A DNA stretch of 64,000 bases, taken from the NCBI GenBank assembly GCA_017306155.1, contig JAFKJB010000011.1, positions 1-64,000 of the forward strand. Reading direction: 5' to 3'. A program made the translations under genes and the position numbers. This DNA is from Nitrosospira multiformis. Lineage in GTDB: Bacteria; Pseudomonadota; Gammaproteobacteria; Burkholderiales; Nitrosomonadaceae. Below the pieces are notes generated by a model. The model ran no database searches and was not told the DNA's origin. It worked only from the letters and a program-made list of their open reading frames with translations. This document shows positions 20,919-56,142 of the stretch, in pieces. The number at the start of each line of letters is the position of its first letter. The stretch's first letter is position 1.

Positions 20919-21653
20919 CTAGCGAATTGTACGGGGCTCGATCAGGCCCATGGAAAGCGCACGCGATATGGCTTGCTGACGATTGACAACCCCCAGTTTA
21001 TGAACGACATTCTGCAGGTGAAAAGTCACTGTCCGCTCCGAGATCTTGACGATGTTGGCGATTTCCCATCCGGTTTTACCCTCTGCGGCCCATAACAGAC
21101 ATTCCTGTTCCCTTTTGGTCAGGTTGGCCTTCTTTACGGGTAGCGGACCTTTACTGAGGACAATGCGCTGCACCGCCTCATGCAGATAGCAGGTTAACAG
21201 TTGTGCTTTACCCATTGTGGAGATAATGTCGCTTTGTGCCTCACGCGACTCTCTTGAGGTAGCCAGGCTCAACATGGCGGCTTCGCCGCATCCGCCATGA
21301 ACCGAAAAACTGGCTCCGCTGACCAGCCCGCAATCCTTGGCCTCGTTTCTTACGCGCGCCTCTCTTTGCCCCTTGAAAACTTCCTTCTTCCATACGACCG
21401 GAATAGACGTTCTGGCGCAATGCGAAACCGTAGGATCGAAATTGGCATAGCCCTCCTTGTCATAATGTTTACGCCACTCCTCCGGATAACAACTGAGGAT
21501 GAAGCGATAAGGGCGGGTAAGAGAAGTGTTCACCTGAACACCATACAGAAAATGCTCGAATCCCATTGCGCGGATAATGGTTGTGGTAGCGCTGTGCAAT
21601 TCGTCCACCGAATCGCAATTCATCAATGATTCGAATAAGGTCAAATTATCCAT
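20919..21653 (-). CDS. LuxR-family quorum-sensing transcription regulator
   Basis: 244 aa. The N-terminal autoinducer-binding domain keeps the ligand-pocket pattern W-x3-Y...D-P...W (EEWRKHYDKEGYANFDPTV, then PVVWKK) and the later GLVSGASFSVHG. The C-terminal LuxR helix-turn-helix runs LTKREQECLLWAAEGKTGWEIANIVKISERTV to the end. It should bind an acyl-homoserine lactone and a lux-box operator. GAGGG lies just before ATG 21653. The cognate synthase is not adjacent: the only luxI in the window is at 55055, with its own lux box. Pairing of the two is inferred. Confidence 0.9.
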   Translation of the reverse strand: MDNLTLFESLMNCDSVDELHSATTTIIRAMGFEHFLYGVQVNTSLTRPYRFILSCYPEEWRKHYDKEGYANFDPTVSHCARTSIPVVWKKEVFKGQREARVRNEAKDCGLVSGASFSVHGGCGEAAMLSLATSRESREAQSDIISTMGKAQLLTCYLHEAVQRIVLSKGPLPVKKANLTKREQECLLWAAEGKTGWEIANIVKISERTVTFHLQNVVHKLGVVNRQQAISRALSMGLIEPRTIR

Positions 21654-54974: not shown

Positions 54975-54994
54975 TCCTGTAAGATTTTACAGCT
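54975..54994 (+). promoter_or_regulatory. lux box upstream of luxI
   Basis: A 20-bp site whose core CTGTAA-GATT-TTACAG is a perfect 6-bp dyad. It agrees with the Vibrio fischeri lux box at 15 of 20 positions by my count. Its end lies 60 bases before the luxI start, a suitable place for LuxR activation. Confidence 0.8.
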
Positions 54995-55054
54995 ATTCGG
55001 GGGTCCGGTTCCGTTGTTTCATAGCGTCGTTATCAACCAACGACGGGTGAAAAA

Positions 55055-55696
55055 ATGGGACAGATCATGCTTGCACAACATGGCAATGGTTCTCTTGATA
55101 AACGGGCCGCAATGGGAATGTATCGGCTGAGACACGAGGTTTTTCACGACCGGCTCGGCTGGGAAGTAACCACGGATAACGGCATGGAGCATGACGAGTT
55201 CGATCTTGCAGATCCCGTCTATGTTCTGGCGAAAGGAAGCGAGGGGAGCGAAGGAGGCGAGGGGGATGAAGACGAGGTGCTCGGTTGCTGGCGATTGCTT
55301 CCCACCCAGGGACCCTACATGTTGAAGGATACTTTTCCGCAACTCCTGCACGGGCAGACCGCCCCACAGCAACCGGATGTCTGGGAATTGAGCCGCTTTG
55401 CCGTCATGGTCCCCAAATATGAGAGCGCCGGCTTCGGTTTTAGTGAAATTCCGGTAAAAATGATGCGAACCCTGTTTCTCTTCGCCCGTCATAACAAGAT
55501 AAAGCGTTATGTAACCGTTACCACCGTTGCAGTGGAAAGACTGATACGCAAGCTTGGCGTGAACGTTTCGAGATTGGGCGCACCGATCAAAATCGGGCGG
55601 GTTTTGACAGTCGCATGCTATATCGAAATCGATGAAATCACTGAGTTCGCTCTTTTTGGCACGCTCCCGGAAAATGCACAAAGGAAGGCAGCATGA
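55055..55696 (+). CDS. acyl-homoserine-lactone synthase
   Basis: 213 aa LuxI-type synthase, making an N-acyl-homoserine lactone from AdoMet and an acyl carrier. Invariant positions are present: RHEVFHDRLGW (Arg, Phe, Trp), DEFD, GCWRLLPTQGPYML and WELSRFAV. Between the DPVYVLA strand and VLGCWR lies an acidic Gly/Ser/Glu-rich insertion (KGSEGSEGGEGDEDE) that is unusual. ATG 55055 is used, with ATG 55067 as alternative. A lux box lies upstream and a receiver-like gene is coupled to the stop by ATGA. The nearest LuxR gene is at 20919-21653. Confidence 0.93.
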   Translation: MGQIMLAQHGNGSLDKRAAMGMYRLRHEVFHDRLGWEVTTDNGMEHDEFDLADPVYVLAKGSEGSEGGEGDEDEVLGCWRLLPTQGPYMLKDTFPQLLHGQTAPQQPDVWELSRFAVMVPKYESAGFGFSEIPVKMMRTLFLFARHNKIKRYVTVTTVAVERLIRKLGVNVSRLGAPIKIGRVLTVACYIEIDEITEFALFGTLPENAQRKAA

Positions 55697-56142
55697 ATAT
55701 TTTACTGGTTGGAGAGAGGCAGGATACCCGGCAGATCCTGCAGCTGTTGCTTGAAAAATCCAAGCACAGGCTGGAGCGAAAAACGCTGGACAGCTTCCCG
55801 GAGCCGGATCTGGAAGCCTATGACATGGTTCTGGTCGACGGCGCAGTAGACGATTGCACCCAGCAGGTGAACCTGGTGCAATGGGTGCGGGAAGCGAGGC
55901 GGCGTTATCCTCATTTGCCGGTGGCGGTCATGAATAACGTCGGACCAAATGAGGCTTCCGAGAATGAACCGGCTTGCGGCACGATGCACACTTGCGGTGT
56001 ATTCGAGTCGGGTAATGGCGTTCTGAACATGCGGTGCAGGCTGCGTGAAATCGCACTGGGAGAAACTGCCGCATTGATGCGCGACGATTGCCAGCGGCCC
56101 CTGTTGGAACCGGTTACTTTTGAATATTCGGGAAGGGGATGA
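55693..56142 (+). CDS. degenerate receiver-like protein coupled to luxI
   Basis: 149 aa. The first 85 residues follow the receiver fold: MNILLVGERQDTRQILQLLLE, YDMVLVDGAVDD, PHLPVAVMNN. The acidic pair is replaced by Gly-Glu. Asp49 of LVDG could be the phosphoacceptor, but the conserved Thr/Ser (here Asn) and Lys are missing. It is therefore unlikely to be phosphorylated normally. The start overlaps the luxI stop (ATGA), so it is made together with the synthase. Function unknown. Confidence 0.75.
   Translation: MNILLVGERQDTRQILQLLLEKSKHRLERKTLDSFPEPDLEAYDMVLVDGAVDDCTQQVNLVQWVREARRRYPHLPVAVMNNVGPNEASENEPACGTMHTCGVFESGNGVLNMRCRLREIALGETAALMRDDCQRPLLEPVTFEYSGRG

Follow-up and report, generated by a model that had tools for sequence, protein, structure and literature searches.

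Nitrosospira are important soil ammonia oxidisers and are said, in work by Mellbye et al. from 2017, to carry luxI and make AHLs. The luxI and AHLs of the genus are already in print, and the targets of the signal were not found in the open-licence papers searched. In the luxI promoter of V. fischeri, the −10 element lies about 21 nt downstream of the lux box, and in class II lux promoters the box replaces the −35 element. Two systems have been described in other nitrifiers. According to excerpts of one report, the NspR1/NspI quorum regulon of Nitrospira has a lux box before luxI, and a GGDEF/EAL gene shares this box (PMC8553950). Passages of a second report describe a search for lux-box-like motifs upstream of nwiI and nwiR in Nitrobacter winogradskyi and include the nirK cluster among the reported targets of NwiI/NwiR (PMC5080386). 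Excerpts of a further paper, from whose main text the word Nitrosospira is absent, report luxI unlinked from QS-domain luxR in some Rhizobiales, Rhodobacterales and Burkholderiales (PMC4338825). Six terms relating to quorum sensing and exosortases are absent from PMC4964001. Judged by titles and the opening lines of abstracts, none of the open-licence papers on Nitrosospira luxI, lux box, quorum and exosortase describes the box or regulon presented here, and the matches for Nitrosospira together with lux box concern Nitrospira (PMC8553950) and a sphingomonad (PMC7432010).

Here, we analyse a 64-kb stretch of Nitrosospira multiformis DNA (the window), which belongs to a 98.3% complete draft genome (3.02 Mb in 36 contigs), and compare it with a genus sample of 23 Nitrosospira genomes that includes the window's own. 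Gene calls were made by ORF length, without a gene finder (Table 1). We consider it highly likely that the 20-bp site in front of luxI is a genuine lux box that would subject luxI and ORF2, the gene that follows it, to positive feedback by the one LuxR in the window. The box is an ordinary kind of autoinduction site; the arrangement around it is an unusual genus-wide split.

Table 1. Features of the luxI locus and strict sites of the same genome (positions in the window)
Feature	Position	Strand	Remarks
luxR	20919..21653	−	AHL-binding regulator, 244 aa; proposed box regulator; PF03472 145.9 bits, GerE (PF00196) 70.7 bits
lux box	54975..54994	+	TCCTGTAAGATTTTACAGCT; V. fischeri lux box identity 15/20; perfect CTGTAA/TTACAG dyad; core kept in 23/23 genomes
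Putative −10 hexamer TTTCAT	55017..55022	+	Starts 22 nt past box
Inverted repeat CGTCGTT-N7-AACGACG	55025..55045	+	Between putative −10 and start codon
luxI	55055..55696	+	AHL synthase, 213 aa; PF00765; alternative start ATG at 55067
ORF2	55693..56142	+	149 aa; overlaps luxI by ATGA
Strict site 1			Before luxI
Strict site 2			Before 672-aa PAS histidine kinase gene, then receiver, then 1028-aa GGDEF/EAL-type protein
Strict site 3			Before TAT-signal tyrosinase gene
Strict site 4			Before 324-aa receiverless sigma-54 activator, divergent from ispD
Strict site 5			Before PEP-CTERM/exosortase-associated acyltransferase (TIGR03694, 267 bits, cut-off 112)

The site upstream of luxI

The luxI product scores 111.1 bits against PF00765 (cut-off 24), is the sole match to this model in its own genome and has LasI as its nearest solved structure (154.5 bits). 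AHL synthases have an active-site set of R, F, W, D, D, R, F, E and R. In an alignment with LasI that was read by eye, without EsaI/LasI numbering, we find the conserved residues in the segments R..VF, GW, D..D, WR, TFP and ELSR. LuxI is predicted to make a diffusible AHL. The protein ranges from 204 to 213 aa in close relatives, in which a Gly/Glu/Ser/Asp-rich stretch at residues ~60–74 (window 55232–55276) varies in length and resembles a small coding repeat.

The first-pass annotation had described a site 60 bases before luxI with a perfect dyad and 15 of 20 positions in agreement with V. fischeri, and each of these particulars, coordinates included, proved correct. The box ends 60 nt from the first luxI ATG, 7 of its 10 position pairs are symmetric by eye, and nowhere else in the window, on either strand, is 15/20 reached against the sequence that we take to be the V. 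fischeri lux box. The site is thus a dyad of about 20 bp near the V. fischeri consensus and upstream of luxI. By itself the match count is weak and not significant, because a match of at least 15/20 is present in 17.7% of simulated windows (53/300), a frequency that would also suit a chance resemblance in one genome; per single 100-bp promoter, ~3e-4 such matches are expected. The exact dyad CTGTAA-N4-TTACAG occurred in 0/300 simulated windows and, with two mismatches allowed, the pattern has three matches in the window versus 1.0 expected.

The annotation had made conservation of the dyad upstream of luxI in close relatives a test of its reading, and the dyad passes: the core CTGTAAGATYYTACAG lies upstream of luxI in 23/23 genus genomes, at a core-to-ATG distance of 60–63 nt in 22 of them and 337 nt in the remaining one (G019). 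All 23 also have a LuxI match, with the frame broken in the assembly of one genome that is 80% complete (G015). The mean majority share is 0.97 over the 16-bp core and 0.93 over the following 6 nt, as against 0.67–0.71 over the 60 nt upstream. Counted from the core start, it falls to 0.67 at nt 22–35 and is 0.85 at nt 36–52, the interval containing the −10 candidate. The strict 16-mer CTGTARRATYYTACAG is found in every genus genome (130 sites, 2–8 per genome) and in 0/77 other family genomes, an even draw from a larger group, and its reversed-pattern control gave no match in all 100 genomes. A chance match is refuted by this conservation, and we regard it as having next to no probability. Among these 100 genomes, 22 of the 23 within the genus encode an AHL-binding LuxR, versus 5 of the 77 outside it. 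The concentration of both the strict site and LuxR in the genus indicates that the site is a feature of the lineage carrying this LuxI/LuxR system.

The E. coli-type LexA consensus shares the half sites of the CTGT-N8-ACAG palindrome, which could for that reason be an SOS box rather than a lux box. We judge this very improbable, as a LexA DNA-binding domain match is lacking in 21/23 genus genomes, the window's own included, while the same model matches 10 of 14 control genomes. The two exceptions are one genome with a single match of 24.9 bits (cut-off 23.7) and another with two matches below the cut-off. Moreover, none of the five predicted targets in the window's genome is a classical SOS gene, and the distribution of the sites follows that of the genus, as do luxI and luxR. 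The SOS reading is hence largely refuted, and the lux box reading is the one that we follow below. As a separate observation, the distribution of the LexA domain raises the possibility that the genus lacks a LexA-run SOS response.

Promoter geometry and the distant LuxR

In 21/23 luxI promoters, TTTCAT or TCTCAT begins 22 nt past the box, and in the other two (G011 and G012) the spacing is 23 nt. We observed the same arrangement at 115 distinct strict sites, unpicked and on either strand, where a hexamer of the pattern T.T[AC][AC]T or TTAAAT, chosen after viewing the promoters, sits at offset 22 in 91 cases and in no more than 12 at each of the 55 other offsets. All 115 sites come from loci L054 onward, and 8 of the 23 luxI sites are among them; the 15 that would complete the 130 equal in number the luxI sites outside those loci. 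Similarity to TATAAT, a score independent of the choice of pattern, also peaks at offset 22 across 116 promoters of 14 gene families with hand-picked members (e.g. 14/20 PAS-kinase sites): the mean of family means is 3.26 there and at most 2.39 elsewhere at offsets 8–49, with a mean of 4 at offset 22 reached by only 7 of the 14 families. The hexamer pattern is present at that offset in 89/116 family promoters and in at most 11 at any other. Four families have no −10 in the tested direction (EamA, DLH, TrbB-like and a PAS protein). Among the 24 strict sites lacking the pattern, several show, by eye, TCTTAT, TTTTAT or a hexamer shifted by a single base.

Since the −10-like hexamer sits at a fixed 22-nt offset, we infer that the box occupies the −35 position, with the −10 some 20–22 nt downstream as in a LuxR-activated promoter of the class II type. 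The positive autoinduction proposed at first pass is favoured over negative autoregulation by this spacing, from which the sign of control is deduced. Some LuxR homologues are repressors of the EsaR kind, and a few of the sites have no −10 at offset 22, as might be the case if the box were real but LuxR repressed from it, or if another regulator used it. Against this stand the activator-dependent geometry of 91/115 sites, with which repression by LuxR would fit poorly, the resemblance of LuxR to LasR (its nearest solved structure, at 140.2 bits) and the lack of a second PF03472 match in the window's genome; we therefore consider repression or a different regulator improbable. Under the preferred activation model, LuxR together with AHL would bind the box as a dimer, and the box, as a −35 substitute followed 22 nt on by the −10 hexamer, would recruit RNA polymerase in an AHL-dependent manner.

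An inverted repeat follows the putative −10. Similar repeats are found at the luxI leaders of relatives, differing in sequence and similar in pairing, and the repeat may lie at the transcription start. Over 20 leaders, RNA folding gave a mean z of −1.4 relative to mononucleotide shuffles, and the 5′ arm would be cut by the start predicted from the −10. In light of this weak folding and the predicted cut, both a DNA and an RNA reading stand, and the repeat could act either as a hairpin in the leader or as an operator where transcription begins.

The gene after luxI, ORF2, is probably co-translated with it. It directly follows luxI at 22/22 readable genus loci, with an ATGA or GTGA overlap at 21 of them and a start just past the luxI stop at the other. 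Neither Pfam nor NCBIfam yielded a match for its product at E ≤ 0.001. A scan of genome contigs, non-exhaustive in that it missed the copies of the related genus described below, returned 17 loci, all from Nitrosospira or Nitrosovibrio, the best being N. multiformis Nl12 at 97%. The predicted structure has low confidence (mean pLDDT 59.6), and nothing in the PDB matches it at E ≤ 0.001; the weak matches include receiver domains, and the first half of the model looks receiver- or Rossmann-fold-like. In profile comparisons, the probability was 0.5% versus a receiver of the window and 0.05% versus LuxI. Its coupling to luxI suggests that ORF2 has a role in the circuit.

The absence of a luxR adjoining luxI, pointed out in the first-pass annotation, is confirmed. 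The only PF03472 match in the window's genome is the divergent gene 33 kb away, so that a second LuxR there is rejected. Its product carries both an autoinducer-binding domain and a LuxR-type HTH. The AHL pocket of such regulators has the residue set W, Y, D, P, W and G; the segments EEWRKHY, FDPT, VVW and GLVSG, which contain them, align by eye with LasR. No adjacent luxI/luxR pair was found in Nitrosospira. The two domain matches are divergent and 28.0–42.0 kb apart in 20/20 genomes that have both on one contig; they fall on separate contigs in G015 and G019, and in a further genome (G013, 260 contigs, 93% complete) luxI and the sites are present without a LuxR match, possibly owing to an assembly gap.

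In a related genus, which we call g2, the genes are adjacent in the order luxR-luxI-ORF2 at 4/4 loci with luxI, ORF2 running off the contig in one of them (G029). We term g2 related rather than sister, as gene order was compared in the genus and g2 without a tree. Ten further family genomes of the 77, nine from g2 and one other (G088), were searched for LuxI, which is present in four of the nine g2 genomes, exactly those with LuxR; in G088, a LuxR-type match occurs but LuxI does not. The g2 luxR lies ~0.27–0.29 kb from the luxI ATG, the LuxR proteins are 58–60% identical to that of the window, and ORF2 identity is 58.7–64%. The g2 luxI box, CCCTGTAAGATTTGACAGCT, is identical to the window's at 18/20 positions, and TTTCAT starts 22 nt past it in 4/4 promoters. 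The strict 16-mer has no match in the four g2 genomes that carry both genes, because their luxI box differs at one dyad position. The remaining g2 neighbour genes have no specific counterpart in the 64-kb window.

An adjacent pair with a near-identical box and the same −10 spacing makes the distant LuxR very probably the cognate regulator of the luxI box, and the luxI/luxR split probably derived. The nomination of this LuxR at first pass is in this way supported, both as the sole AHL-binding LuxR found and through its g2 homologue adjoining a boxed luxI. The simplest history is that of an adjacent pair that was separated in the Nitrosospira ancestor with its regulatory link kept: a luxR-luxI-ORF2 tandem would probably be ancestral, surviving in g2, and luxR and luxI-ORF2 would have come to lie ~30 kb apart in that ancestor.

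The predicted regulon

The annotation had proposed a genome-wide search for further copies of the dyad. In the window's genome, this search returns five strict sites, each with a gene start downstream (Table 1). The sigma-54 activator reached no curated NCBIfam cut-off. The start of the acyltransferase is uncertain: in the longest ORF the domain does not begin until residue 123, and the site may be ~0.46 kb from the true start. The same box would thus mark a regulon comprising a PAS kinase/receiver/GGDEF-EAL group, the PEP-CTERM/exosortase acyltransferase, tyrosinase and the receiverless sigma-54 activator, along with CheW, a FadL-type porin and a TPR protein in other species.

Across the genus, sites lie at most 350 bp from an ORF of the same family for an ExbB-like gene, so named by eye, in 21 genomes, with a PAS kinase in divergent orientation in 20, tyrosinase in 13, CheW in 10, a TPR protein with a divergently oriented EamA transporter in 10, the acyltransferase in 8, the sigma-54 activator in 7 and a second PAS kinase in 6. 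These genome counts are minima, as a looser pattern was applied in some genomes than in others and only part of the loose sites was fetched; those left out comprise several with two mismatches in G002–G006 and some with one or two in G007. The 151 site entries represent 150 distinct places, and 32 of the entries have no neighbour common to several genomes. Three genomes (G001, G017 and G020) have a site 0.8 kb before an acyltransferase-like match as well. On this basis, the PAS-kinase/c-di-GMP group, the exosortase-linked acyltransferase, tyrosinase, the sigma-54 activator and CheW are the predicted targets.

Some sites merit mention in their own right. One box-bearing exosortase-associated acyltransferase (L233:6137–7273) belongs to a family that is distantly LuxI-like (38-bit LuxI match), and TCCGTTGTTTCATA is common to it and the luxI promoter, at an identical offset. 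Further PF00765 matches in other genomes (19.7–32.4 bits) probably represent exosortase-associated acyltransferases and were not considered further; the only acyltransferase typed is that of the window's genome (TIGR03694), which is not a PF00765 match. In three genomes, a site without a −10 at offset 22 precedes a T2SSE/TrbB-like ATPase gene, where signal control of conjugation is possible by analogy with TraR systems. Three genomes have a lux box before a gene for a FadL-type outer-membrane porin, which could be related to long-chain signal uptake.

A more far-reaching proposal is that of a genus-specific quorum regulon that arose from a broken luxR-luxI-ORF2 tandem. The rigid design of box, 22 nt and −10 would have spread to genes for c-di-GMP signalling, the LuxI-like exosortase acyltransferase, tyrosinase and chemotaxis, and ORF2 would be a new receiver-like component tuning signal production or LuxR activity. 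We put this forward tentatively, as a possibility about which we are more doubtful than confident. The box and its neighbouring genes provide a short list of candidate promoters for signal control, and the predicted targets point to surface polymer and c-di-GMP functions, not to ammonia oxidation itself. The locus is also a clear case in which the signal gene and the receptor gene lie apart with the regulatory link seemingly kept.

Comparison with known systems

The luxI promoter of the window resembles that of V. fischeri, as we take the latter to be, in its 20-bp box (15/20), the −35 position of the box and the predicted autoinduction of luxI. It differs from V. fischeri in that luxR is 33 kb off instead of adjacent and in the extended consensus, which reads CTGTAARATYTTACAGCTAY here by eye. 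The LasI/LasR pair of P. aeruginosa provides the nearest solved structures of both proteins; unlike that pair, luxI and luxR are far apart here, and ORF2 follows luxI.

Among nitrifiers, the excerpts on Nitrospira NspR1/NspI indicate a system of similar type, with a lux box at luxI and a boxed GGDEF/EAL gene, although Nitrospira is a different organism group and its box sequence is given as ACCTGGCGGTTCCGCCAGGT (PMC8553950). N. winogradskyi, in the passages cited, is likewise a nitrifier with LuxI/LuxR (PMC5080386), whereas none of the five predicted targets in the window's genome is a nitrogen-oxide gene. The location of luxI away from luxR is a feature that the Nitrosospira locus shares with the unlinked cases in Rhizobiales, Rhodobacterales and Burkholderiales, as those are presented in the excerpted text (PMC4338825).
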